The position numbers and the translations under genes were made by a program. From a virus: a DNA stretch of 25,905 nt. The notes under the pieces were generated by a model, which was not told where the DNA came from, made no database searches, and worked only from the letters and a program-made list of their open reading frames with translations. Below, one piece after another: positions 141 to 25,905 of this stretch. Positions within the stretch are counted from its first letter, which is position 1, and every line of letters starts with the position of its first letter. The DNA lies in the IMG/VR virus record IMGVR_UViG_3300046451_002522, positions 1 through 25,905 of that record. One strand, written 5' to 3'.

Positions 141-1311
141 TTTTGTATATTTTAAAGTAATCTATTTCCTGGTAAAAGCTTCTATTGTCTATGATTTTCT
201 GCAGGAATGTTGTATTGCACTGTTTTTCAAGTTCAAGATCCATCGCTGCTTTGCTTGGGTAGATTTTGTCACCCCTGATAATGTTGAGACTGGATTCATA
301 GTATGTATAATTATGACATAGATTGTCTGGATTGTCAAGGTCTTTTTTCGACAGCTCTTGATCTTTGTAAATATTTTGGTGAAAGAATTTTAACCTAATT
401 GAAGAAATGTCTTCTCCTATATATAATAGTTTTAATTTAACTCCTGTTGATATGATTTTGTTTATATAGTCTTCTGGTGTTTCGTCTGATATAAATAAAT
501 ATATTATTTTTATGTTGTTTTTATTTTCTTCTATTAGTTTAAGCTCTATCTCTTTATTTAAGTAGATTGCGCATTTGTGTTTCCTTACCCAGTACTCTGT
601 CATATATGGATTGTCTGTATAGTCCGCCCTTATATTTATCATACTTCCTTCCTTGATTTGTATTGTCTTTGGGGGTTCTGAATCTGGGACTATATCTATT
701 ATTTGTGTGTGAAAGTTGCTACCTATGTGGATTGGCTTATTTTCGCTTAGGTTGTTGTCTATGTTTAATAACCTAAGGCATTCGCTTGCGACATGATCTG
801 GAAAGATTTCGTCAACCCTCTTGGTTACTTCTTTTGTCGCGAAGGAAGGCTTTCTCGAGGAATAGTCTGGGGAGATTAGGGATTGTGTGTTTTTATCCCC
901 CCAGTAGGGGCTACATGTATTCGTTATTACGGGCCCGTAGAGAGCTACTACTGGGGTCTCGTAAAACGCCGAGACGTGGGTCGAGAACGAGTCGTTGCCT
1001 AGGTGGAGCATGGAGTTTTTTAGGACAAAAAAGGATTGCCTTAGTGACGTTTCTCCTAATAGGCTCTCTGCCCCCTTTATGCTCTCGTCTTTCTTTTCCC
1101 CTATCTGGAGTATTTTGATTCCTTGCTCTTTTAATTTCGGTTTAATTAATTTAATAACGTTTTCGAAATAAGAATAATTTTTCGAATCCATTCCGGAGCC
1201 CCCATGTATTGTTATATATTTATCGTGTTCTATTGGATAGAATAGAGGTTCAATATGGGGAGTTCCTATTTTGCATCCTGCCGCCAGAGCGTAGTTTTCT
1301 ATTAGGTGCAT
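118..1311 (-). CDS. C-terminal half of a GT9 heptosyltransferase-like enzyme plus an unknown domain
   Basis: The protein has 397 residues. Residues 1-180 resemble the C-terminal Rossmann half of family 9 glycosyltransferases (ADP-heptose:LPS heptosyltransferase type). They show a YITIHGGSG strand-loop, a KILQIGEKKDES segment and the donor-site region LHLGNDSFSTHVSAFYETPVVALYGP. The matching N-terminal half is not in this protein but at the end of the upstream 650-residue protein. The ATG at 1311-1309 overlaps that gene's TAA by 10 bases and lies in the -1 frame, so termination-reinitiation would make both pieces. Residues about 190-397 form a second, Lys/Ile/Asn-rich domain that I do not recognise. 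Role inferred: sugar transfer in the cytoplasm as one half of a split enzyme. A sequencing indel that broke a single gene is the main alternative. Confidence 0.75.
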   Translation of the reverse strand: MHLIENYALAAGCKIGTPHIEPLFYPIEHDKYITIHGGSGMDSKNYSYFENVIKLIKPKLKEQGIKILQIGEKKDESIKGAESLLGETSLRQSFFVLKNSMLHLGNDSFSTHVSAFYETPVVALYGPVITNTCSPYWGDKNTQSLISPDYSSRKPSFATKEVTKRVDEIFPDHVASECLRLLNIDNNLSENKPIHIGSNFHTQIIDIVPDSEPPKTIQIKEGSMINIRADYTDNPYMTEYWVRKHKCAIYLNKEIELKLIEENKNNIKIIYLFISDETPEDYINKIISTGVKLKLLYIGEDISSIRLKFFHQNIYKDQELSKKDLDNPDNLCHNYTYYESSLNIIRGDKIYPSKAAMDLELEKQCNTTFLQKIIDNRSFYQEIDYFKIYKNDKDKKD

Positions 1312-3254
1312 AAGTCTAGGGATATTTTGTCTTTGCCGTTTCTTGTATAGTTTAATACTCTCTGGTTATTTATGTGGAGAAGTATTGCTACTTCAAAAAA
1401 ACCTTCCTCATCCGGCCGGTCTGTTCTTCCGCTAAAGCCTTCTAGTGTTAGTGCGTCGTGGCACTCTGGAGTCATTGGGAGAACCTTATGTATATAGGGG
1501 TTTCCTTCTAGTATCTCGTGGTATATTTCTTGACATATGAAATACAGATTGTAGTCCTCGTATGTTTTTTTAATGTCTGCCAGTAGGCTTGTTGCCATAA
1601 ATATATCTCCTATGCTTTTTGGTAGCACTATTGCTATTCTTTTTCCTTTGTCGGAGTCGTCTAGGAAATCTGCTATTGTTTTTTCCTTTTTCTTTGAGGA
1701 CTGTATTTGTCTTTCCGCATTCTTTTTTAGTGCTGCAAATATTTTTTCTCTTGAGGTTCCTGCTCTGATTTTTTTTAGCAAAAACTCAAATACCTCTGAA
1801 TGGGTTTTTAGTTTTACTCTCAAAAGGTTCTTGTATGTTTTTGTTATAAACTCCTCGTCCGTTTCTGCCTCTGGGATTATGCAATTGGGGTTTGCTTTTA
1901 GTTTATCCTTGTTGAGCATACCCTTGTCACTCTTAGGCATGTCATCAATTATTTTCATTAATTTGTTTGCCGAAGCTTCTATCGAATAGTTTTTAACTAC
2001 GAAATCTCTTGCTTTTTTTCCCATCCTTAGCTTTTTTGCGTTATTCATTTTGAGGGATTTTGTTAGTTTGCTACATATACTGTGGGGACAAGTGCTTGCT
2101 TTTACGAACTGCGTTCCGGGCTCTCTGTATTCTGCCCAAGATAGAGGCATGCCTCCTGAGTCTTCTGAGGAACAATCTTGTCCACAGCTGTAGTCCGTAA
2201 CTAGTGTTATTAATTCGCATAACTTAGCCTCTTGAATGGGTAGTTCTTGACCTCCTGAAGTAAAGGGGTGGCAGTATACGTCCATGAGGTTATATATTTC
2301 GTTTAGCTGGCTTTCGCTTGGCCCTTCGTGCACGCTTGATGTGTTTAGCCCCTGCTTGCTACCGCAGTGGGGGCAGCATTGCTTTTCTCCTCCCTTTTTA
2401 TTGTCTGCGGCAAAGGGTTGTATTTTGTATTTTTTACATTTCGAGCAAAAATATGTAGTTAAAACATTCTTGTTTTCTATGCCCTTCTCTTTGATTAATT
2501 TGGGAATATCCCAGCCCTCTTGCCAGTTAGTGTGAAGTAATAGTTTTGCTGAGGTTTTGCTGTTTTCTTTTTTGAACTTGGCAAATCCGTCTAATAGGTT
2601 TGGGACACTTTTCCTTAGCTGGTTCCTAAATACAAATCCTATTATGTAGTCATCTTCTTCTATGTTGCTGTTATTTCTTATTTTTTTTCTCTGTTCGTCT
2701 TTTAATTTAAAAAAGTTTGAGTCATCTATCGGTCCATGTATACATTGGGCGTTCCCTACTCCTTGAGATGCTAGCTCTTTTTGGGCGAAATTTGACCAGG
2801 TTAGGAACTTGTCCGTGTTCCTTGCTGTAGAAGCTGTCGTATCTAGTATTGGAGTCGAGTCTAGAGTTATCCAAAGTATGGTATTTATGTGCGACCACCA
2901 AGGCCTTTCGCAGAACCCGTTAAACGCCCATATATCCTCCGAGCCAATATATATATCTGGTTTTTCTTTAAAAATTATTTCATCTATCCTGAAGTGCCCA
3001 TATCCCGCTTTGCTTTTAGTTGAGTTGTTTGTATCGCACTCTTTTTCAATAGCAGGGTCGTTAGGAAAGCTCCCTATACATTTCCATGGAAAAAGCTGCA
3101 GAGCTGGAGACTCCTCCTTTACTCCGTTCGCCACCTCTATTATCTCATACTTTCCTGTTGAAAAGAGATGGGTTAATATATTCTTGGCATTTTTCCCGAA
3201 TCCCGTAAAGACTCTTGAGCAGTTACTGTGGAATAGGATTTTTTTTTTAGCCAT
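1302..3254 (-). CDS. GT4-like glycosyltransferase with zinc ribbon, DUF4214-like linker and N-terminal half of GT9
   Basis: The protein has 650 residues in several parts. Residues 1-435 look like a GT-B glycosyltransferase: an N-terminal KILFHSNCSRVFTGFGKNAK glycine loop, IIGFVFRNQLRKSVPNLLDGF at the start of the second Rossmann domain, and a donor-site SGGQELPIQEA (E337, E342). A four-cysteine zinc ribbon (C270, C273, C294, C297) sits inside the C-terminal Rossmann domain. Residues about 465-515 (ITKTYKNLLRVK, IRAGTSREKIF) resemble a DUF4214 helical unit. From about 538, RIAIVLPKSIGDIFMATSLL is the N-terminal half of a GT9 heptosyltransferase, including FSGRTDRPDEEGFFEVAIL, and it stops just where the second half should begin. 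The start is TAATG, overlapping the upstream stop. It probably transfers two sugars, or recruits the split GT9 partner. The acceptor is unknown. Confidence 0.8.
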   Translation of the reverse strand: MAKKKILFHSNCSRVFTGFGKNAKNILTHLFSTGKYEIIEVANGVKEESPALQLFPWKCIGSFPNDPAIEKECDTNNSTKSKAGYGHFRIDEIIFKEKPDIYIGSEDIWAFNGFCERPWWSHINTILWITLDSTPILDTTASTARNTDKFLTWSNFAQKELASQGVGNAQCIHGPIDDSNFFKLKDEQRKKIRNNSNIEEDDYIIGFVFRNQLRKSVPNLLDGFAKFKKENSKTSAKLLLHTNWQEGWDIPKLIKEKGIENKNVLTTYFCSKCKKYKIQPFAADNKKGGEKQCCPHCGSKQGLNTSSVHEGPSESQLNEIYNLMDVYCHPFTSGGQELPIQEAKLCELITLVTDYSCGQDCSSEDSGGMPLSWAEYREPGTQFVKASTCPHSICSKLTKSLKMNNAKKLRMGKKARDFVVKNYSIEASANKLMKIIDDMPKSDKGMLNKDKLKANPNCIIPEAETDEEFITKTYKNLLRVKLKTHSEVFEFLLKKIRAGTSREKIFAALKKNAERQIQSSKKKEKTIADFLDDSDKGKRIAIVLPKSIGDIFMATSLLADIKKTYEDYNLYFICQEIYHEILEGNPYIHKVLPMTPECHDALTLEGFSGRTDRPDEEGFFEVAILLHINNQRVLNYTRNGKDKISLDLCT

Positions 3255-13890: not shown

Positions 13891-14978
13891 TTGACAGTAT
13901 CAATATTAAATGCCCAATAAACAATCTCTCCTTTGGGAACGTCTCGTACAATATATTAAGGGAGCTGTTTAAGGCTGGTACGAGAGTTAATCTTTTTCCC
14001 GTGGGCCAAAAGGTAGACTTTTCCTCGTTCGATAAAGCTTCGCCTGAGTTCAGTGACTTTATAAAAGAGTCTGTTGAAAATAGGAATATCAACGTTAGAA
14101 GAAACTATCCCTACCTCAACATATGGCATATAAACGGCTCAGAGCAAAAAATATCAGACTATAATATTTTGTATACCTTTCACGAAACGGGAGAAGTTAC
14201 TGCCGCGGAGAAATCATTATGTTCGCTCTATGACGAGGTGGTATTCGGCAGTTCATACGCAAGGGACGCGTTCAAGTCAAGCGGGGTGAATAATTGCTAC
14301 TTTTCTCCTCTAGGGCTAGATGAGGATATCTTCCCCACAAACAAGAAATACTTAGAAGGAAAGATTCACTTCGGACTAATGGGCAAATGGGAGAAAAGAA
14401 AAAATACCGCAAAAATAATCAACCTATGGTTAGGTAAATTCGGAAACAATAGTAGATACCAGCTAACGTGTTGCACAGATAATCCCTTCCTAGACAAAGA
14501 GGAAATGGAACACCACAAAAAAGCAGCAACAAAGGGTCTAAAATATAATAATATAAACTTCCTTAAATTTATGCCAAAAAACTCACAAGTAAACGACTAT
14601 TTAAACTCTATAGATATCGACCTCGGAGGCTTGAGCGGCGCAGAAGGCTGGAATTTACCAAGTTTCAATTCCACGGCTCTTGGGTGCTGGCCAATAGTAT
14701 TAGATGCAACTAGCCACAAAGACTGGGCGAACAAGGAGAACTCAATCCTAGTAGAACCATCGTCAAAGTCAAGCATCATAGACGACAGATTCTTTTTTAG
14801 GCATTCCGAATTCAACCAAGGACAGATGTACAACTTCTCAGACGAAGGCTTCTATAACGCGGTAGACATAGCCGTAGCGAAAGTAACCTCTAAGCAAAAG
14901 AACGAAGAAGGAAAGAAGATTAAAGAAAACTTTACATATAGAAATACTTTAGAAAACATATTGAAGCGTGTATTATAA
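13890..14978 (+). CDS. GT4-like glycosyltransferase with non-ATG start
   Basis: The open frame runs back to 13878, well upstream of the first standard start (GTG at 14001). The upstream codons read IDSINIKCPINNLSFGNVSY then NILRELFKAGTRVNLFP, which is the N-terminal Rossmann strand and glycine loop expected of a GT-B enzyme, so the true start must be near 13887-13890. The ATT at 13890 shares its A with the SSB stop TGA, and GAGGAGG lies about 16 bases upstream; CTG at 13887 is the other option. Downstream, YTFHETGEVTAAEKSL, VFGSSYARDAF, HFGLMGKWEKRKNTAKII and GGLSGAEGWNLPSFNSTALG (donor-site Glu) complete the fold. About 362 residues. It probably transfers a sugar in the same glycan pathway as the minus-strand block. 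Confidence 0.8.
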   Translation: MDSINIKCPINNLSFGNVSYNILRELFKAGTRVNLFPVGQKVDFSSFDKASPEFSDFIKESVENRNINVRRNYPYLNIWHINGSEQKISDYNILYTFHETGEVTAAEKSLCSLYDEVVFGSSYARDAFKSSGVNNCYFSPLGLDEDIFPTNKKYLEGKIHFGLMGKWEKRKNTAKIINLWLGKFGNNSRYQLTCCTDNPFLDKEEMEHHKKAATKGLKYNNINFLKFMPKNSQVNDYLNSIDIDLGGLSGAEGWNLPSFNSTALGCWPIVLDATSHKDWANKENSILVEPSSKSSIIDDRFFFRHSEFNQGQMYNFSDEGFYNAVDIAVAKVTSKQKNEEGKKIKENFTYRNTLENILKRVL

Positions 14979-15353: not shown

Positions 15354-16865
15354 ATGGCTGATTATCAGAATAACCCTATTTACGACTCGGACATCAGGAA
15401 GATACAGGGACCTGCTCCCACCGTAATATTCCAATATGAATGGGACGACGCACTCGCTAGGTGGGTTCCGGCGCAAGCTCCCAAGATAGACATTGAGATT
15501 GGCGAGATAGAGATAAACCTATCCTCAACCAACGCAATACTTTCAGGAATATCAGGGGTATTAGAAGCACAGGGACACACAAACGACGGAGAAACACACA
15601 GATTACTTTCTGGAATTTCGGGAGTACTAGGGGAGCAGTCAGGGACAAGCGACGAAGAAACGCATAGAATACTTTCGGGATTTTCAGGAACAAACGAAAT
15701 AAAGCTTCAGGAAGTAAAGAGTGCTATAGAGAACATAGATATAGATCTCGAAATAGGAGAGATAAATATAACAGGAGCGGACCTTAGCGATGAAGAAACA
15801 CACAGATTACTATCAGGAATATCAGGCCAAGACGAATGCAACTACCTAGAAAGCCAAAGATTACTAAGGTCAGTCAAGGATAGCGCAGAAAACCTATCCC
15901 TTTCAGTAGAAGAGCTAAAGAAGGACTTTAGAGAGCTAACCTTTCACAAAAAAACGTTTTACCAAGATGCTATACTAGGAGAACTAACCCCAACCGAACC
16001 GGAAAGTCAAGAAGACCCTCTTTTTCGAAAGATACACAACATGACAGAGAGGGAAGATCCACTGGATTACCCAATCATCCAAGAAGGATTCCAAGGGGAG
16101 AACGAACCGAGGATAGAAGATAACGACTCAACAATGCCCTTCTCTATCAGAATGGAGGATTATAAAGGAGGATTAAAGGGCTGGCACAGCTTCTTTCCGC
16201 TAAAAAAGAAACTAGGAAATGGGGACAGGGTACAGCTATACAACGAAGACAACCACCCAATAGAAATGGCGTTTCAAGGAGGAGACGTCTCGCACTGGTT
16301 ATATCAAGGGTATCAGATTGAATTATCAAAACAAGAAGCCTATCAGCTATTCATAAGAAACAAGTACGCCATAGAAAGTTTTGACATTCTCTACTCAGTA
16401 GAAAGAATGTATGTGCCAGAAGAAGCTTCTGATAGGAATGATTTTAGCGAATTTACAGGAAGAGAGTCCAAACCAGAGCAAACAAGAACAAGAATAGGAT
16501 TAGGAAGCGTTCTTATGGACAACTCTCACCTTTACGTAAAATACATGGACAAATGGAAAAGGATAGCAATTGCCTCATGGGAAATTAGTCACGTAAAAAC
16601 CCAGCCACTGTATACAATAGACTATTTTGACGCGCATACAGACGCCAGCTTCCTATACCTAAACACAAACGACGGAGAAAGAAGGGTCGCCATAGCAGAC
16701 TGGCAAACCTGGGAGAAGGCTCCTCTAGAATGCCACAATAGAATATGGGCAGATAATTACTTCCTATATACCAAAGTCTCAGGCAGCTCAAGCGAGGTAT
16801 GCTCCGAGACAAAAGGTGAAAACGAATGGCGTAGATACGCAATATCAACCTATCAGAAAAAATGA
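15354..16865 (+). CDS. Virion-like protein with LSGISG repeats and C-terminal beta repeats
   Basis: The protein has 503 residues. The N-terminal part repeats a short motif: AILSGISG (61-68), THRLLSGISG (81-90), THRILSGFSG (103-112) and THRLLSGISG (149-158), the last three following an acidic [DE]-[GE]-E-T pattern. EIGEIEIN/EIGEINI occurs twice as well. A helical, charged stretch follows (170-200), and an acidic linker reaches about 265. The C-terminal 115 residues hold three copies of a beta unit: LYVKYMDKWKRIAIASW (393-409), LYLNTNDGERRVAIADW (434-450) and a third at 467-500 ending EWRRYAISTY. This architecture suits a tail fibre or other virion surface protein. No enzyme motif is seen. Its stop overlaps the next start by four bases. 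Confidence 0.75.
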   Translation: MADYQNNPIYDSDIRKIQGPAPTVIFQYEWDDALARWVPAQAPKIDIEIGEIEINLSSTNAILSGISGVLEAQGHTNDGETHRLLSGISGVLGEQSGTSDEETHRILSGFSGTNEIKLQEVKSAIENIDIDLEIGEINITGADLSDEETHRLLSGISGQDECNYLESQRLLRSVKDSAENLSLSVEELKKDFRELTFHKKTFYQDAILGELTPTEPESQEDPLFRKIHNMTEREDPLDYPIIQEGFQGENEPRIEDNDSTMPFSIRMEDYKGGLKGWHSFFPLKKKLGNGDRVQLYNEDNHPIEMAFQGGDVSHWLYQGYQIELSKQEAYQLFIRNKYAIESFDILYSVERMYVPEEASDRNDFSEFTGRESKPEQTRTRIGLGSVLMDNSHLYVKYMDKWKRIAIASWEISHVKTQPLYTIDYFDAHTDASFLYLNTNDGERRVAIADWQTWEKAPLECHNRIWADNYFLYTKVSGSSSEVCSETKGENEWRRYAISTYQKK

Positions 16866-18688: not shown

Positions 18689-20596
18689 CTACAAGGACTC
18701 CTCTATAGTTACGGTAACATCTAGTATATTACCTGCGTTAGTTATAACCTGATTGTCTATAATCAGCTCGCTGTCATTAATTATCCCAAACCCAGCCTCA
18801 AGATTAGAGGTGCCGTCCTGCTTTGGTAATGTTATCCCAGCATCATATGGGAGAGAGAAGGTATTACCTCCGTCGGGTGTCGCCGTAGCAAAAAGATTAG
18901 ACGTGTTAAATACATCTACGCCCAAATCTACAGCTAAATAATCCGGAGCTAAAACAGTAATAGTCCTTTGATCAAAACCCCTAATAGTCCCAGCATCGTC
19001 CTTTTGAAAGGTTTCTCCAATTAGTTTCTCGCCCTCAAAATTAATAGTAAAAGTACCGCGAGGGGTATCGTCAGAAATAAGTATTTGAAAAGAAAATGAA
19101 GTGTTGCTGTTTTTAGAAACCGCACCAACCGTAATGCTTGAATCCGAAACAGAAAGTATTGACAAGGAAGCCAAAGGCTCTCCAACAGAAACGGTTATAT
19201 TAGTATATTGCGCTCCAGCAGAAGAAGACCTAAAGGTCGAGGGGGAAAAGTTTACAGAAGGAACAGTTCCTTCGGATTGAATCTGTATGGCAGACGAAGA
19301 GGAGGACGCAGACCTTCCATTGGATTGCTTAAAGACAGAAACCGTCACAGTACCACTAGTGTAATTGCTTGCGTTTTCTCCGGAAACAACGAACGGCGAG
19401 CTGTTTATATCAGAAGGTATAGTAACAAATTTTAAAACAGCACTCTTAGAATAGTTATGATTATCGAAATCAGAAGCAGTAACATTAACATTAACGCTCT
19501 GTCCTGTATTATTTATTACATTAGTAGAATTAGGATAGCTAAAATTAAGAGAAGCAGAAGGAGATGAATTATTTGTTATAATATTATTATCTGCAGTATA
19601 AGACTGAGATTGATTGCCAGTTATATCCTCTACCGTTACATTAAAATTCTTAACCTGAACACTGTTTAACGCTCCGCCCACAGTAACATTAAACTCATAA
19701 TCGTAAGTGCCGTCACCATTGCTATTAAAACTTGGGTTATTTACAGTTTTCGACTGAAGAGCTCCGCCAGAAACTGTAATCTTACCAATTTCTTTCGAAG
19801 ACTTAACGTAAACCCTTGCTGCGTCACCATTCTTAGCTTCAGTCTGATTATAGCTCTGATTTCCGTCGTGAGCATTAAAGGAAGAAGTTTCGTAAAAAGT
19901 TCCAGTGTCTGTTTTATCAATAAATTTTGCCTCAATAACCTGTGGAAGAGTATCCTTTTCGAGAGAAAGATAGGTCTGTCTGCCTCCGTTCTTGAATAAG
20001 TAAGTTATTGGGGAAGAGCAGTCCAGCCTAAGCGTGGTATTAAAGGAATAATTATTGCTATCCGAGACGAGAGAGGAATAAGGAACATTTTGATATTGTG
20101 GGTCTTCGCCGCTCGTAGCATAGCTTATTGAGGGCTTGAAAGTCTGAGCATCTCCTCTTTCAATTAAAAGCGTTATATCGACTTCGTCGCTCGCAGTCCT
20201 GACTCGTCTTACCACCGCTCCACTAAACTCCGACTCCAAAATCTCCTCAACACCACCAACAGCGGTAACATCTGTTACAAAAATGGGTCCAGTATCTACA
20301 CCCCCAGAGGACTCGCCAGAAGAGCCTCCCGCATCAGATCCAACAATTTCCCCGACGACAATTTGGTCGAAATAGCCGATACTCCCCCGAAAGGCGTACC
20401 CACTGATGTCGCCAGTTTCAGAAGTAAAGTCTATAATTTCAGTAACCCTAGTCGAGCCAGAGACGGTTAAATCGCCGCGGATTATAATATCATTAATAAA
20501 ATCTTTTTCCCCAAAAACCTCCTCGTCGCCATGAAGGCCTACGAAGTCCCCCGTGGCAAGCACGGATTCTTTAGATTTCTGGATAAATTGCGCCAT
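18689..20596 (-). CDS. Large virion fibre candidate with Ig-like beta-sandwich repeats
   Basis: The protein has 635 residues. Residues 1-90 contain an attachment-like module, with GEKDFINDIIIRGDLTVSGS and FRGSIGYFDQIVVGEI, a pattern common near the N-terminus of phage tail and fibre proteins. A Gly/Ser linker (91-100) leads into a long Ser/Thr/Asn/Val-rich region with repeated strand patterns: VRRVRTASDEVDITLLI, GKITVSGGALQSKTVN, QVKNFNVTVEDITGNQSQSY, SVNVNVTASDFDNHNYS, GTVTVSVFKQSNGRSASSSS, FTINFEGEKLIGETFQ. These suggest four or more Ig-like domains. The many Asn/Ser/Thr residues would offer glycan acceptor sites. It starts in a TAATG overlap with the small gene upstream. No catalytic motif is seen. 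Confidence 0.75.
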   Translation of the reverse strand: MAQFIQKSKESVLATGDFVGLHGDEEVFGEKDFINDIIIRGDLTVSGSTRVTEIIDFTSETGDISGYAFRGSIGYFDQIVVGEIVGSDAGGSSGESSGGVDTGPIFVTDVTAVGGVEEILESEFSGAVVRRVRTASDEVDITLLIERGDAQTFKPSISYATSGEDPQYQNVPYSSLVSDSNNYSFNTTLRLDCSSPITYLFKNGGRQTYLSLEKDTLPQVIEAKFIDKTDTGTFYETSSFNAHDGNQSYNQTEAKNGDAARVYVKSSKEIGKITVSGGALQSKTVNNPSFNSNGDGTYDYEFNVTVGGALNSVQVKNFNVTVEDITGNQSQSYTADNNIITNNSSPSASLNFSYPNSTNVINNTGQSVNVNVTASDFDNHNYSKSAVLKFVTIPSDINSSPFVVSGENASNYTSGTVTVSVFKQSNGRSASSSSSAIQIQSEGTVPSVNFSPSTFRSSSAGAQYTNITVSVGEPLASLSILSVSDSSITVGAVSKNSNTSFSFQILISDDTPRGTFTINFEGEKLIGETFQKDDAGTIRGFDQRTITVLAPDYLAVDLGVDVFNTSNLFATATPDGGNTFSLPYDAGITLPKQDGTSNLEAGFGIINDSELIIDNQVITNAGNILDVTVTIEESL

Positions 20597-20907
20597 TAGA
20601 TATTAGTAAATGTTGCCGTTGCGCTAATTCTCCCCCCAACCTGAGAGCTCGCCCCAAGGCTTTCACCCTCGGCAAGTATAAACTTTTCACTACCAAAATA
20701 AAACGTCTCCTTATTAGGTATAGGTAGAGATGAAATAACCTTTGTTTTATCACTAGGAGCGTTCCCAGTACCGTTAACGAAAACATCAATCACATCATCC
20801 TCGTCAGTGGGGTTGCAAAAATAGATTCCTAAATTAGCATAACCCTCACCCGTAGGAGCAGAGACTATCTCGGTATAATTAGATTGAACAATTACATTTT
20901 TAATCAT
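20596..20907 (-). CDS. Small beta-rich virion-associated protein
   Basis: The ATG at 20907-20905 gives 103 residues and overlaps the portal stop by eight bases; the longer open frame to 20973 runs through the portal end and is not supported. The sequence MIKNVIVQSNYTEIVSAPTG, YANLGIYFCNPTDEDDVIDV and KETFYFGSEKFILAEGESLG alternates short strands and loops, like the small one-domain proteins found among structural genes of many marine myoviruses. A decoration or neck/tail accessory role is inferred from its place between portal and fibre genes. The stop overlaps the start of the 635-residue gene. Confidence 0.7.
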   Translation of the reverse strand: MIKNVIVQSNYTEIVSAPTGEGYANLGIYFCNPTDEDDVIDVFVNGTGNAPSDKTKVISSLPIPNKETFYFGSEKFILAEGESLGASSQVGGRISATATFTNI

Positions 20908-22882
20908 CTTGCTGTCCCCGCTTGCTGTGGTAATATAACGCAGAAGGATAAGTGGAAAGCTCCTTCTGTTCACTAATAGACAATACCTCAGGCAAACATC
21001 CTAAGGCGGCTATCTTTTCGTTATCTGAAATGCAAGCTTCAGCTACAGACTCCCAAGAATCAATATCAGTAGAACAGATAATAGACTCACACAAGTCCTC
21101 CGCAGTTTCAGCTTGTAACTTTGTCAGCTTTTTCTTTTTAAACTTAGAGCGAAGTTTGGTTTTTATTAGAGAGCTTAAGCTTTCGGCCTTATAGACGATA
21201 TTTTGAACGTCCTTTCTGGAAACCTGCTCGCTAGCATTATCCTGGGGGATATTTTTAGTACCTGAAGGTCTTCCCGTTTCCTTACCCGAAGGCCCAGGAG
21301 AACCTTCGTTAGAAGAGTCCGGAGACTCAATAACAGGAACTCCACCCACCAAGGGGTTATACATTCCATCCTCCCTTTCCCCTGAGTACGTTTTTTGCGC
21401 ACTATTAAGGTCTGAGGAATGAGGGTATATACCCGTCTTGATCGCGTCGATGCCTTGTTCCGGAGTAAGGATGCCAAGTTCCAATAGTCTTGTCACGACT
21501 CTTTGAAGCTGAACCTCATCCTTGATATCAACCTCCTCAAACCTAGCCTTAGGAAAATCCCTAAAGCCAAGGTTTTGAGACATTAGTTTAATCTGAGGTT
21601 GAAGGAAATCGTTCAAAAATGCATTCCGAGCCTCCTTTAACCTCTCTAAAAATATCTGCGCTTTGACCTGAGTATTACTATATCTCTCGTCCCCAACGAT
21701 GATATTCTGCAGGCCCTCTTTAATATCCTGATTAACAATATCATATTTATCGGGACCGACGACCTTCCTTAAATCAGGAATAACAAAGTCAGCCTTAGTA
21801 GTATAGTCACTAACCAGAACCCTACCAACGCTTTCGTTAGTAAACAAACCCTGCATAGCCTCAAGGTTACGGGGATTTATTCCCCCTTTGTCAGGTTCAG
21901 CACCCATGGTAATTAATAATATAACATTTTCGATTGTCCTGCAGATTGCCTGATCAATCTTCTTAAGTTCAATCTTGTAATTAATATCATCCAAAACAGG
22001 GAAACCGAACGGAGTTGCGAACGGTTCGTAGTCTTGCTTTTTATAAAACGAATAAACGAGCTTTGTTGGATCCAAAGGAACTTCGGCGCCCTCCTTTTGA
22101 AAATTCTTGCTCTTTATTTTTTCCTTCAGCTCAGGGTCTAGTGAGTCGTAAACCTGCTGATCGTATTCAGTCTTGGGGTCAAGGAGTCTTTCCAAGTCGT
22201 ACTCAGACAAAACCTTAAAGTACTGACCCTCGCTAAAGGAGGTTGCCCGTTTAGCGATAATATCATATGGGTTTAAAAAGATATACTTTAATGGGATCTG
22301 CCCAGGCTTAATACCTGAACCGTATATCTTAGACATGTTATTGAAGTCTTCCTTACTGAAAGAACCATCAACCCTATACATGAAAACGTTACCAGATCTA
22401 TAATATTCTCTAAAATATTGATCCTTAATTTTCCATATTGATACCCTCTCCATCCACTTATATACAAAGTCCCTAGCCTTAGAGCTTCCACCTTCTAACT
22501 TAATATCGGAATTAGCAAACTCCGACATTATGTCTATAGCGTTTCTAAAGATAGGAATGTTTGCATATGCCTTTTGACACAATTCAACAGCACTCCTTAT
22601 ATCTACGCCGTTTTCTCCGACCTGATAAGGTAGCAGACCAGCCTCAATATTAGAGTACTGATTTTTCTTCGCTGACTTATGAACCTTATTAGATCTCCTA
22701 GAAGATGAGCTTAAGTTGGAACTATGGCTGGCTTGAGAAACAAAAGCAGAAGGGGCGGACCCCTCGCTGTAATAACTCTCGCCAGCAAATATAGGCGGAA
22801 TGGCGGTTTCGCTGTTTACTGCCTCAGTTTTTTCAAACTGATTCCAGTACGCCGATTTCTTATTATATTTCCTCTTACTCAC
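20900..22882 (-). CDS. Phage portal protein
   Basis: The start is GTG and the protein has 660 residues. From residue about 65, QVGENGVDIRSAVELCQKAY and IPIFRNAIDIMSEFANSDIK match the start of the portal fold, where a dodecameric ring at one capsid vertex passes DNA. FVYKWMERVSIWKIKDQYFR, YYRSGNVFMYRVDG, IPLKYIFLNPYDIIAKRATS, TIENVILLITMGAEPDKGGI, DIKEGLQNIIVGDERYSNTQ and ARFEEVDIKDEVQLQRVVTR with LLELGILTPEQGIDAIKTG complete the stem, wing and clip pattern. A Ser/Pro/Gly-rich linker (about 500-550) leads to an unusual helical, Lys-rich C-terminal extension (KTKLRSKFKKKKLTKLQAET). The terminase, prohead protease and major capsid protein are not in this window. Confidence 0.88.
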   Translation of the reverse strand: MSKRKYNKKSAYWNQFEKTEAVNSETAIPPIFAGESYYSEGSAPSAFVSQASHSSNLSSSSRRSNKVHKSAKKNQYSNIEAGLLPYQVGENGVDIRSAVELCQKAYANIPIFRNAIDIMSEFANSDIKLEGGSSKARDFVYKWMERVSIWKIKDQYFREYYRSGNVFMYRVDGSFSKEDFNNMSKIYGSGIKPGQIPLKYIFLNPYDIIAKRATSFSEGQYFKVLSEYDLERLLDPKTEYDQQVYDSLDPELKEKIKSKNFQKEGAEVPLDPTKLVYSFYKKQDYEPFATPFGFPVLDDINYKIELKKIDQAICRTIENVILLITMGAEPDKGGINPRNLEAMQGLFTNESVGRVLVSDYTTKADFVIPDLRKVVGPDKYDIVNQDIKEGLQNIIVGDERYSNTQVKAQIFLERLKEARNAFLNDFLQPQIKLMSQNLGFRDFPKARFEEVDIKDEVQLQRVVTRLLELGILTPEQGIDAIKTGIYPHSSDLNSAQKTYSGEREDGMYNPLVGGVPVIESPDSSNEGSPGPSGKETGRPSGTKNIPQDNASEQVSRKDVQNIVYKAESLSSLIKTKLRSKFKKKKLTKLQAETAEDLCESIICSTDIDSWESVAEACISDNEKIAALGCLPEVLSISEQKELSTYPSALYYHSKRGQQDD

Positions 22883-23042: not shown

Positions 23043-24152
23043 ATGAAGATAGGAATAACAAGTAGATTTAACTACGGTTTTTTTGCAAACGGGCTCAATC
23101 AAAACGTAGTTTTGCTATATGAGATACTAGAATCCATAGGGGCTGAAGTGTTTTTTTTAGACTTTACAGATGAAAAACTCGGGCAGAAATTTGAGAGTCA
23201 CAAATTTATAGACAACAAAAAAATAATAAACTGGTGGGACTTCGCAAAACAAGAAGATAAGTATGTAGATATACTGCTTTGCCCAGGAGTATCCCCAAAC
23301 AAAGACATTAAGAACGTAATTAAGAAAGCCAACCAAAATTCAAAGATTTGCTCCGTACATTATGGAAACAATCTAATTTCAGACATTCATTCTTTATACT
23401 TCTCTAGCGAGCCAAAACTATATTCCTTTGAAACAGAACAATATTCAGACTTAGTACTCTACTCTCCGCATTATTCGTTTGCAAAAGACTACATGGCACT
23501 AAGCAAAGGTTGCGAAGCGATGGAAATCCCATACATATGGGACCCAAAGTTTATCCAAGAAGAAGCATCCTACCTAGGAGTAAACCCCGAATACAAACCA
23601 GTGGTTAGACCAAACATCGCAGTAGTAGAACCTTGCCTAAACATTTCGAAGACAAATTTCATTCCACTTCTTATAATACTACACCTACTAAAAGAATCTC
23701 CCCACGTTTTTGATGAAGCATATATATTCTCAAACAAATTTAGAGAAAAAGGACTACAACCATGCTCCCACCTAAAAGAAAAAACAATATTGAATAAACA
23801 CCCAAGCAGAGTTTACTTTGATCCCAGGCAAAAATTAGCCCACATACTAGCAAAAGACAATCCCATTATACTTTCGCATCAATTCTATAACGAACTTAAT
23901 TACGTATACCTTGAAGCATTACATTACAACTTCCCATTGGTCCACAACTCTCCTTCATTTAAAGAGGCAGGATTTTACTATCACGAATTTAATATCAGCG
24001 AGGGCGCAAACTGTGTAATCACTGCAACCAAAAGCCATAACGACACCCTTGAAAAACAAAAAGAATCAGGACAAAAAATAATTGAGAGATATAGTATGGC
24101 AAGTAATCGAAAAAAAATGCAACAATTGATAGAAAAAATTCATAATGCTTAA
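23043..24152 (+). CDS. DUF2827 glycosyltransferase-like protein, first copy
   Basis: The protein has 369 residues. It opens MKIGITSRFNYGFFANGLNQ, then NVVLLYEILESIGAEVFFLD, the 'NG.NQN...L' signature of DUF2827. ILLCPGVSPNKDIKNVI, KICSVHYGNNLISDIHSLYF, VEPCLNISKTNFIPLLIIL and LSHQFYNELNYVYLEALHYN followed by FPLVHNSPSF complete the family pattern, which implies a GT-B fold. DUF2827 proteins occur in bacterial surface-polysaccharide loci and are thought to be glycosyltransferases, but no reaction is established to my knowledge. It overlaps the second copy by eight bases and lies just upstream of a repeat-rich fibre-like protein, which makes that protein a possible acceptor. Confidence 0.85.
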   Translation: MKIGITSRFNYGFFANGLNQNVVLLYEILESIGAEVFFLDFTDEKLGQKFESHKFIDNKKIINWWDFAKQEDKYVDILLCPGVSPNKDIKNVIKKANQNSKICSVHYGNNLISDIHSLYFSSEPKLYSFETEQYSDLVLYSPHYSFAKDYMALSKGCEAMEIPYIWDPKFIQEEASYLGVNPEYKPVVRPNIAVVEPCLNISKTNFIPLLIILHLLKESPHVFDEAYIFSNKFREKGLQPCSHLKEKTILNKHPSRVYFDPRQKLAHILAKDNPIILSHQFYNELNYVYLEALHYNFPLVHNSPSFKEAGFYYHEFNISEGANCVITATKSHNDTLEKQKESGQKIIERYSMASNRKKMQQLIEKIHNA

Positions 24153-25224
24153 TATAGGTATAACTTGCCAACTGGGTAGGTCGATATGGTCGGGAGGAAT
24201 AAAGCAATCAGCCATCAACCTATACGACTGCCTTGAAAAATGCGGGTTTAACCCGATATATCTAAACAACGGCAAAAAAATCAGCGACTTTAAAAAAGAT
24301 CACAAAGCTTTCGACATTGCACAAGTGTTATACGACAAATTTCCGGCGCTAGACCTAATAATTATGCACGGATTTTCTATCCCCAATGAAGAGATAGAGC
24401 TCATTCAAAAAAAACACAAAAACTGTAAAATTATACTATATCACCACGGTAACAGAATCGCAATTGACCAAAGCAACCTACTGACAGGAGCAAACTTTCA
24501 GCCAAGGATGAAAAACTTAGACGAAGTATGGGTGCCAGAACACCACGACTATTCATTGCAATACATAAAAGCATACCACGGTACAGACGCAGTAGTCAAA
24601 TCGGTACCGTACCTATGGTCCCCATTTTTCCTGGACGGGGTAAAACATAAGAAGAATTTATTTTTTGACCCAGAGCAAAAACCAAGGGTTGTAATTCTAG
24701 AGCCAAACATCAACGCTTCAAAAACCTGTCTGATCCCGTTGATTATATGCGAGACGTTCAACAGGGCCTTTGGAAAGTCTTGCGAAAGCTTTAGCTTCTT
24801 CAATACGGAAATGATTAAAATTAATAAGGGGGCAAAAAATCTAATAGAGCAATTCAGCGCCTCGGAGCAGCAAAAAATATTTCTAAATAAAAACTGGAAA
24901 ACCATAGATGTATTCGAAAGACTAGGTCAATATGTTTTATCACATCAATCAGAGAACGAAATGAACTATCTTTATCTAGAAGCCCTTTACCTAGGGTTTC
25001 CGTTGATTCACAATTCTCAGATCCTAAAGGGGTATGGCTATTTTTACAACAAATACGATATCATGACCGCCTCAAACCAAATATACAACGCCATACTAAA
25101 CCATAAAACAAACCTCGAGGATTATCAAGAACAAAACAAAAGGCTGTTGGCTAAATTTTCACCGAGCAACGAATCAAACATTAACTTTTTTAAAAAAAAT
25201 ATTTCCCATCTACTGTTAAACTGA
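24145..25224 (+). CDS. DUF2827 glycosyltransferase-like protein, second copy
   Basis: The protein has 359 residues and the same layout as the gene before it: MLNIGITCQLGRSIWSGGIK then QSAINLYDCLEKCGFNPIYL, KIILYHHGNRIAIDQSNLLT, LDEVWVPEHHDYSLQY, VPYLWSPFF, VVILEPNINASKTCLIPLII and NEMNYLYLEALYLGFPLIHN. It fits the DUF2827 consensus better than the first copy, which has lost the Trp of 'VWVPEHH'. The two are clearly paralogous but well diverged, so duplication is old or they were acquired separately. Two copies in tandem suggest two successive sugar additions, or a heterodimer. The ATG lies inside the end of the first copy. Confidence 0.87.
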   Translation: MLNIGITCQLGRSIWSGGIKQSAINLYDCLEKCGFNPIYLNNGKKISDFKKDHKAFDIAQVLYDKFPALDLIIMHGFSIPNEEIELIQKKHKNCKIILYHHGNRIAIDQSNLLTGANFQPRMKNLDEVWVPEHHDYSLQYIKAYHGTDAVVKSVPYLWSPFFLDGVKHKKNLFFDPEQKPRVVILEPNINASKTCLIPLIICETFNRAFGKSCESFSFFNTEMIKINKGAKNLIEQFSASEQQKIFLNKNWKTIDVFERLGQYVLSHQSENEMNYLYLEALYLGFPLIHNSQILKGYGYFYNKYDIMTASNQIYNAILNHKTNLEDYQEQNKRLLAKFSPSNESNINFFKKNISHLLLN

Positions 25225-25236
25225 GTAACTTTAAGT

Positions 25237-25905
25237 ATGGCACGCAAACTTGCGACAAACGAGTTTGAGTTAAATGGATTTACGGTCAAAAAGACCACTG
25301 ACATCGATGCAATCGATGTTAATTCCATAACTCTTGCTGATTCAGAAGACGTAGCTAGCATTGACTTGAGAATAGAAACTCAAGAAGATGAACGCTCTGA
25401 AGACGTAGATAGCCTTGATACCCGCGTTGGAGATCAAGAAACTGAACGCTCTGGAGATATAGTTAGCCTCGATACCCGCGTTGGAGATCAAGAAACTGAA
25501 CGCTCTGGAGATGTAGATAGCCTTGATACCCGCGTTGGAGATCAAGTAACTGAACGCACTGCAGACGTAAATAGCCTTGATACCCGCGTTGGAGATCAAG
25601 AAACTGAACGCTCTGGAGATGTAGATAGCCTTGACACCCGCGTTGGAGATCAAGAAACTGAACGCACTGCAGACGTAAATAGCCTCGACACCCGTGTCGG
25701 AGATCAAGAAACTGAACGCTCTGAAGACGTAGATAGCCTCGATACCCGTGTTGGAGATCAAGAAACTGAACGCACTGCAGACGTAAATAGCCTTGATACC
25801 CGCGTTGGAGATCAAGAAACTGAACGCTCTGGAGATGTAGATAGCCTTGACACCCGCGTTGGAGATCAAGTAACTGAACGCACTGTAGACGTAAATAGCC
25901 TTGAT
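25237..25905 (+). CDS. Repeat-shaft protein, probably a tail fibre, cut by the window edge
   Basis: An ATG at 25237 opens a frame that stays open to the right edge (223 codons). The first 44 residues (MARKLATNEFELNGFTVKKT and an acidic continuation) form a short N-terminal module. The rest is ten copies of an 18-residue unit, typically RVGDQETERSGDVDSLDT. Hydrophobic residues at unit positions 2, 13 and 16 recur at 11, 3 and 4 residues, as in a coiled coil mixing hendecads and heptads. Such shafts are usual in trimeric phage fibres. The unit is very acidic and rich in Ser/Thr/Asp. The C-terminal receptor-binding part lies beyond the window. It follows the DUF2827 pair after 12 bases. Confidence 0.85.
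   Translation, partial: MARKLATNEFELNGFTVKKTTDIDAIDVNSITLADSEDVASIDLRIETQEDERSEDVDSLDTRVGDQETERSGDIVSLDTRVGDQETERSGDVDSLDTRVGDQVTERTADVNSLDTRVGDQETERSGDVDSLDTRVGDQETERTADVNSLDTRVGDQETERSEDVDSLDTRVGDQETERTADVNSLDTRVGDQETERSGDVDSLDTRVGDQVTERTVDVNSLD
25369..25905 (+). repeat. Tandem 54-base repeats, about ten copies, with a 108-base higher order
   Basis: Units start at 25369, 25423, 25477 and every 54 bases to 25855, where the window cuts the last. From the third unit on, two types alternate: S-[GE]-DVDS (units 3, 5, 7, 9) and T-[AV]-DVNS (units 4, 6, 8, 10), a 108-base period. Units 4 and 10 share a Gln-Val variant where others have Gln-Glu. The array is coding and could be extended or shortened by recombination. 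Confidence 0.92.

Follow-up and report, generated by a model that had tools for sequence, protein, structure and literature searches.

The window analysed here, a linear virus record, spans 25,905 bases (IMG/VR record IMGVR_UViG_3300046451_002522). It ends inside a plus-strand gene that probably encodes the N-terminal part of the receptor-binding fibre of a tailed phage, with a coiled-coil stalk grown by the copying of 108-bp unit pairs and larger blocks. Its identity as a fibre gene is supported by the gene order, by N-terminal homology, and by the lectin-like C-terminal domain of complete relatives. The gene (25237..25905) comprises 223 codons, has no stop codon, and is open at the contig end. 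A 44-residue N-terminal segment (25237..25368), the presumed virion anchor, is homologous to a fibre family with the pattern MAKIF.TE.L.LNG... and is followed by an array of ten 18-residue units (25369..25905; Tandem Repeats Finder and unit alignment). Unit 10 has only 17 residues because the contig end truncates it, so that the copy number is a lower bound of at least 10.

In the proposed mechanism, the short N-terminal segment would attach the fibre to the virion, and the 18-residue units would form a continuous helical stalk with five turns per unit. The helix was predicted, and the stalk is probably a trimeric coiled coil, by analogy with other phage fibres. At the standard helical rise of 0.15 nm for each residue, a unit would be about 2.7 nm long. 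Past the end of the contig, an H-type-lectin-like beta-sandwich head most likely terminates the chain, as in 11 complete relatives. This head, whose fold was predicted in one relative and whose domain is conserved by sequence, may bind a surface glycan. The alternation of two unit types (A and B; S and T in the window) would be the trace left by a stalk that grew through unequal recombination or slippage of 108-bp pairs and larger blocks. Since whole units preserve the helix register, stalk length could be changed without breaking the fold.

A fibre family downstream of DUF2827 genes

The fibre gene lies directly downstream of two genes for DUF2827 proteins on the plus strand, at 24145..25224 and 23043..24152 (Pfam PF10933, 213.7 and 174 bits, respectively; cut-off 25). 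Nearby is a minus-strand gene for a 660-residue portal-like protein (20900..22882; weak PHROG portal match, E 1.3e-4), which served as the synteny anchor. Two IMG/VR contigs, L115 and L155, share the window order of portal-like gene, tandem DUF2827 genes, and complete fibre gene, with one extra DUF2827-like gene in L155. The window fibre shares 50.7% of 223 residues with the complete L155 fibre and is 47.5% identical to the L115 fibre. The adjacent DUF2827 protein is 62% (L115) and 60% (L155) identical to its counterparts, the more distant one 52% and 49%, and the portal-like protein is 72.6% identical to that of L155. This order is not universal in the fibre family, as G028 has an extra gene between DUF2827 and the fibre.

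An alignment of five DUF2827 proteins led to 34 loci. Using a profile of 16 fibres, an open reading frame (ORF) with the fibre N-terminus was found in the flank of 22 of them, which shares its strand with the DUF2827 match in 21 cases and lies opposite to it in L118. These 22 loci are not independent, as the 4,000 upstream bases agree at 99.9-100% within L126/L127, L130/L131/L132, and L139/L140. Six loci came from a final scan with the N-terminal alignment, and three of them (L155, L158, and L159) were new. A profile made from the first 48 residues in each of 15 relatives, with the window excluded, scored the window ORF at 32.8 bits; the best of 2000 shuffles of the ORF's own first 48 residues reached 11.6 bits. 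The N-terminal profile found the fibre ORF alone (E up to 1) among 389 stop-to-stop window translations of at least 30 residues. The relatives in this profile had been found through DUF2827 or the portal-like gene and not through the fibre. The window gene shares two features with the family, a homologous N-terminus and a position directly downstream of tandem DUF2827 genes near a portal-like gene.

Other searches recovered less. Neither a pattern search of viral contigs and of genome contigs with the window repeat ORF nor a single DUF2827 protein used as query recovered a relative, and tblastn of the fibre N-terminus and of DUF2827 found nothing in the deposited-phage collection. The loci collected with the pattern KLATNE..L.G (15 loci) and with a triple LDTR pattern (3 loci on 2 contigs) gave no N-terminal profile match (0 of 18). 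Among 50 records picked from 80 portal-like loci, the window protein matched one (G028), and DUF2827 was present in four. The fibre family has no convincing match in Pfam or PHROGs, only short or weak ones. One Pfam match of the window ORF, Rad9_Rad53_bind (30.8 bits, cut-off 22), was rejected since it covers 29 residues inside the array, whose repetitive, acidic, helical sequence would account for it. Crescentin and other Pfam matches were dismissed for the same reason.

The 11 complete aligned fibres consist of the N-terminal segment, then repeats, then a conserved C-terminal domain of about 80 residues with the pattern ...FxSTPxVVxxLxSxDAxDPIIxxMLS...ATFxFSDxIPSxNYxxEVxAS, which is looser in the two L115 fibres (L115a and L115b). 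The second L126 protein and the short L053 protein were left out of this alignment. AlphaFold2, run on L139 with a 12-sequence alignment, predicted weak N-terminal strands, a helix at residues 42-108, and a C-terminal beta domain scored at 88-95. The predicted local distance difference test score (pLDDT) of the helix was above 90 across residues 61-100 and lower at both ends. In structural comparison, the predicted C-terminal domain gave VIA-align Z scores of 8.4 to two phage tailspikes, 7.6-7.8 to Helix agglutinins (7.8 for Helix aspersa agglutinin), and 6.5-7.5 to R-pyocin fibres (7.5 for the R1 pyocin fibre), and Foldseek gave two matches in a viral library. Much the same structural group is listed for the R-pyocin lectin-like domain in PMC6116203.

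The gene order also bears on where such a fibre would sit. A virion fibre of the same build could be placed on the head or neck, as a head fibre or whisker that aids adhesion or assembly, instead of serving as the tail receptor binder. We consider this unlikely. It draws on the position of the gene near a portal-like gene and on the two adjacent fibres of this kind in both G028 and L115, which mean that not all of them need be the main receptor binder. Also, G003 and G006, which have the DUF2827 pair and no such fibre, encode other large proteins with tail-fibre PHROG matches further along the same strand. A receptor-binding tail fibre is the reading preferred here.

The two fibres of L115 (11081-13579) are paralogous. 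Each has 16 units starting at residue 38, and odd Gly/Ser-rich units stand at residues 110 and 254 in both. Compared position by position, they are 37.5% identical, with A/B phases that are one unit out of step. The fibres of the G028 pair (L144) are unequal in length, with 374 and 333 residues.

Alternating units and copy number of the array

Tandem Repeats Finder reported a repeat at 25380-25905 with a period of 54, 9.7 copies, 89% matches, and a score of 821. In the register starting at 25369, units 1-3 are all S-type (..ERSEDVD, ..ERSGDIV, and ..ERSGDVD), and units 3-10 (25477..25905) read S,T,S,T,S,T,S,T. The S-type unit is RVGDQETERS[G/E]DVDSLDT (RVGDQETERSGDVDSLDT), and the T-type unit is RVGDQ[E/V]TERT[A/V]DVNSLDT (RVGDQETERTADVNSLDT). 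Nucleotide columns 28, 32, and 40 of 54 tell S from T without exception in units 3-10. The mismatch rates between units were 0.104, 0.116, 0.107, and 0.098 at lags of 1, 3, 5, and 7 units, compared to 0.069, 0.052, and 0.019 at lags of 2, 4, and 6, the last value coming from two unit pairs only. These data bear out the strict alternation from unit 3 onward that had been claimed in the original prediction, and the unit alignment confirmed its Gln-Val variants six units apart, both T-type, in unit 4 (25531..25584) and in unit 10 (25855..25905, cut by the contig end). Strict alternation has a chance of 2/70 when four S and four T units are placed in random order, and is weak evidence alone.

The original prediction had explained this pattern by duplication of unit pairs and larger blocks. 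The pairs are supported by the protein identity of the window array, which was 0.87 at a lag of 36 residues compared to 0.78 at 18, with only a small gap at the DNA level (0.89 vs 0.88). Larger blocks are supported by the second L115 fibre, in which the odd unit recurs eight units apart. The six-unit block itself was not unique. Units 3-4 and 9-10 have 2 mismatches in 105 bases, and units 4-5 and 8-9 have 2 in 108, with all 54 bases of units 5 and 9 identical. Since the four-unit spacing fits as well as the six-unit spacing, more than one duplication history is compatible with the window array.

Alternation was found well beyond the window. Over lags of 5-89 residues, lag 36 was the strongest in 9 of 16 arrays (the window, L115a, L115b, L129, L133, L134, L141, L144a, and L144b). 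The L155, L158, and L159 arrays gave 0.79-0.80 at lag 36 vs 0.38-0.44 at lag 18, with lag 108 slightly higher in L158. The lag-36 arrays include close kin, L159 being close to L115b and L141 to L144a. The other best lags were 18 (L118, L126a, and L139), 54 (L119), 43 (L136), 47 (L116), and 64 (L120). Pair alternation is therefore common in the fibre family and not required. These findings also bear on the idea that alternation is kept by selection, with A and B units doing different jobs (for example, as core layers or attachment sites), and is not a by-product of pair duplication. The recurrence of alternation in several fibres despite quite different unit sequences would suit this idea, but the family fibres with best periods of 18, 54, 43, 47, and 64 show that alternation is dispensable, and in the window little distinguishes A from B (three diagnostic bases). 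Selection for alternation is thus an improbable explanation, and growth of the stalk by copying of pairs and blocks is favoured.

The copy number differs among related phages. L129, L133, and L134 have 12, 9, and 10 core motifs, respectively. The aligned upstream blocks are 82.0% and 88.9% identical between L129 and L133, and 83.4% and 85.4% between L129 and L134; no upstream block above 80% identity was among those listed for L133 and L134. L115a has 16 units and L155 has 18, both with the 36-residue A/B alternation. Among near-identical strains, L126 and L127 are 100% identical and equal in length, and the L130, L131, and L132 fibres are each truncated at the contig end. No difference separates L159 from L115 in 5,664 bases of flank or in the final 801 bases of the gene, and they then diverge inside the array. 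The first 90 bases of L159 match the next 108-bp pair exactly, and the difference is confined to the last 90 bases of a contig. The L159/L115 difference is thus ambiguous, an assembly loop being as likely as a real 108-bp duplication. The original prediction was that fibre length may vary between strains. Such variation was seen among related phages; of the near-identical strains, one pair is equal and the other ambiguous. A copy number fixed in all relatives, together with a lack of alternation elsewhere, was looked for, and the opposite was found.

In 12 of the 22 DUF2827 loci with a fibre, the locus stops before the fibre gene does. For 11 of them this point coincides with the contig end, and for L119 it lies 7 bases short of it. 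The end of the window at 25905 is therefore best read as an assembly break within the fibre gene, as in those 12 loci. Another possible explanation is that the array at the contig end is partly an artefact, in which read loops added units that the phage lacks. This would agree with a contig that stops within its array, like the 12 loci, and with the sole near-identical pair with differing arrays, whose difference falls in the last 90 bases of a contig. However, only units 5 and 9 of the window are identical, and the others differ at scattered sites, some of them synonymous, and a loop would not produce such differences. In L115, L129, L134, L144, and L155, complete arrays that alternate in the same way also lie within contigs. 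An artefact of this kind is thus very improbable.

The L155 and L158 contigs carry the same metagenome number (3300020442). One ends soon after its complete fibre gene, and the other starts inside the repeats of a second-type fibre. Both contigs may come from a single phage whose sequence was split at the array.

Conformation of the stalk

The best AlphaFold2 model of the window ORF was a single helix spanning residues 36-222, with a score of 82.9, and the repeat region is likely helical. Across 16 arrays, all 206 spacings between core motifs were 3, 7, 8, 11, 14, 15, 18, 21, 22, 25, or 36 residues. None of the 206 was 5, 6, 9, 10, 12, 13, 16, 17, 19, 20, 23, or 24, which would be out of helical phase. 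The spacings were sums of 7 and 11 in 174 of 206 cases, and the others (3, 8, and 15) occur where the motif also fits a second core position. This is as expected of heptads with stutters. A period of 18 residues per 5 turns, as 7+7+4, is given as a coiled-coil periodicity in PMC4786415. Alpha/beta coiled coils, in which insertions of 2 or 6 residues produce elements of 9 or 13, would give spacings of 9 or 13. None of the 206 had these values, but 18 is twice 9, so that the spacing by itself is still compatible with such a structure; the predicted uninterrupted helix speaks against it.

The original prediction had proposed a check of the coiled coil by its 11-3-4 core spacing. This spacing of V, V, and L is legible in the unit, and the spacings are helix-compatible, but the hydrophobicity spectrum did not support a coiled coil. 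In the window spectrum, the peak at 3.60 was above 300 shuffles (9.3 vs 8.1).

Several observations weigh against the interpretation as a receptor-binding fibre with a coiled-coil stalk and a lectin-like head. The largest peak of the window spectrum was at 2.58 (16.9) and not at 3.60, and permuting the 18 columns of the window array gave a P of 0.37. Any exact 18-residue repeat has spectral power at 18/5. Among 15 relatives, only L129 beat its shuffles in the spectrum, at 3.28. There are only three hydrophobic positions per unit, and two of the presumed core layers would be Gln and Arg. The other four of the five window models were poor (31.6-39.6), and all the predictions are of monomers, which are uninformative on trimers. 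As for the core-motif spacings, 128 of the 206 are 18, several of the 16 arrays are closely related, and the motif was chosen by the analyst. The independent evidence from spacing is therefore the handful of values other than 18. The head is absent from the window, where the array is still running at 25905, and was deduced from relatives. For the L139 domain, the first 15 VIA-align rows had Z scores of 7.0-8.4 at 7-15% identity, and such Z scores are common for small beta domains; Foldseek found no PDB match for it at E 0.001 or better. Also, for 12 of the 34 DUF2827 loci the retrieved flank contains no fibre of this kind.

Neighbouring genes and known systems

Relatives of the window portal-like protein are encoded in at least 600 stretches of viral contigs, and tblastn found none at E 1e-5 in the deposited-phage collection. 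The phage group is therefore common in IMG/VR and unseen among the deposited phages searched. In G028, the relative of the portal-like protein comes after a gene with terminase large-subunit PHROG matches. A neighbouring minus-strand gene at 18689..20596 encodes a 635-residue protein whose order is kept with L155. It is 54.7% identical to the L155 protein over only 95 aligned residues, because the retrieved stretch truncates the L155 copy.

Tandem, strongly diverged DUF2827 genes, as at 23043-25224 of the window, recur in L115, L155 (three copies), G003, G006, and G028. The DUF2827 alignment had no match among solved structures, and neither window DUF2827 protein had an NCBIfam match, so that the glycosyltransferase nature of DUF2827 is unproven. 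If these proteins were glycosyltransferase-like enzymes, they could form one cassette with the fibre, in which they decorate Ser/Thr of the stalk, A and B are two kinds of acceptor, and recombination of 108-bp pairs tunes the length. The odd units at equal heights in the L115 paralogues would fit matched or co-assembled stalks in such a cassette. This is a highly speculative proposal with little chance of being correct, and it is not part of the preferred account of a receptor-binding fibre.

Other genes of the 26-kb fragment include two glycosyltransferase-like ones at 1302-3254 and 14001-14978, both with phrog_2170 matches and the first also with Glycos_transf_1. A further repeat-bearing protein, with units of the ETHRLLSGISG type, is encoded at 15354-16865 and found upstream in several relatives (L125:3879-5405, L129:1-1050, L133:2188-3888, and L134:2660-4306). 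The best lags in these four were 19-26 residues.

Phage fibres with coiled-coil stalks and phage fibres with lectin-like heads are already known, and the window fibre looks like an ordinary kind of viral fibre. Among the papers listed in searches on repeat-bearing phage fibres, lectin heads, and DUF2827, none was recognised as describing the DUF2827-linked fibre family. The analysis describes the anatomy and the relatives of a fibre gene from uncultured phages that lacked a convincing match in the family libraries searched. Since many of these contigs break inside the fibre gene (12 of 22 loci), the diversity of fibres in such phages is probably underestimated. If the length variation by 36-residue pairs is true, stalk length would be quickly tunable under a simple structural rule, the addition of 7, 11, or 18 residues.

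Among known repeats, PMC6949934 describes tandem BACON domains of crAss-like phages that are associated with tail proteins and, in one lineage, arose by successive duplications. Those repeats are whole domains of a carbohydrate-binding type, whereas the window repeat is a short helical stalk unit. The lectin-like domain of R1 and R2 pyocins (PDB 6CXB, 6CL5, 6CL6, and 6CT8) shows 12-14% identity. In contrast to a continuous coiled coil, helix-plus-turn motifs build up the rod and shaft of the pyocin fibre (PMC6116203). The minor tail protein gp89 of Arthrobacter phage Atuin (OK040794) likewise has 18-residue repeats with the same LDTRV core (e.g. LSTLDTRVTGVSAAASTG). Its identity is high at lags 18, 36, and 54, and here too the two longer lags exceed the shortest. 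Unlike the window gene, it is much larger (62854-76545), and its identity to the window, compared on the repeats only, is 28%. The closest likeness in build is to the DUF2827-linked fibres (L115, L155, L126, L129, L134, L139, L144, and others), which share the N-terminus and the 18-residue repeats, often in A/B alternation, with the window fibre, but differ in unit sequence and in unit number (16 in L115a, 18 in L155, and at least 10 in the cut window copy).
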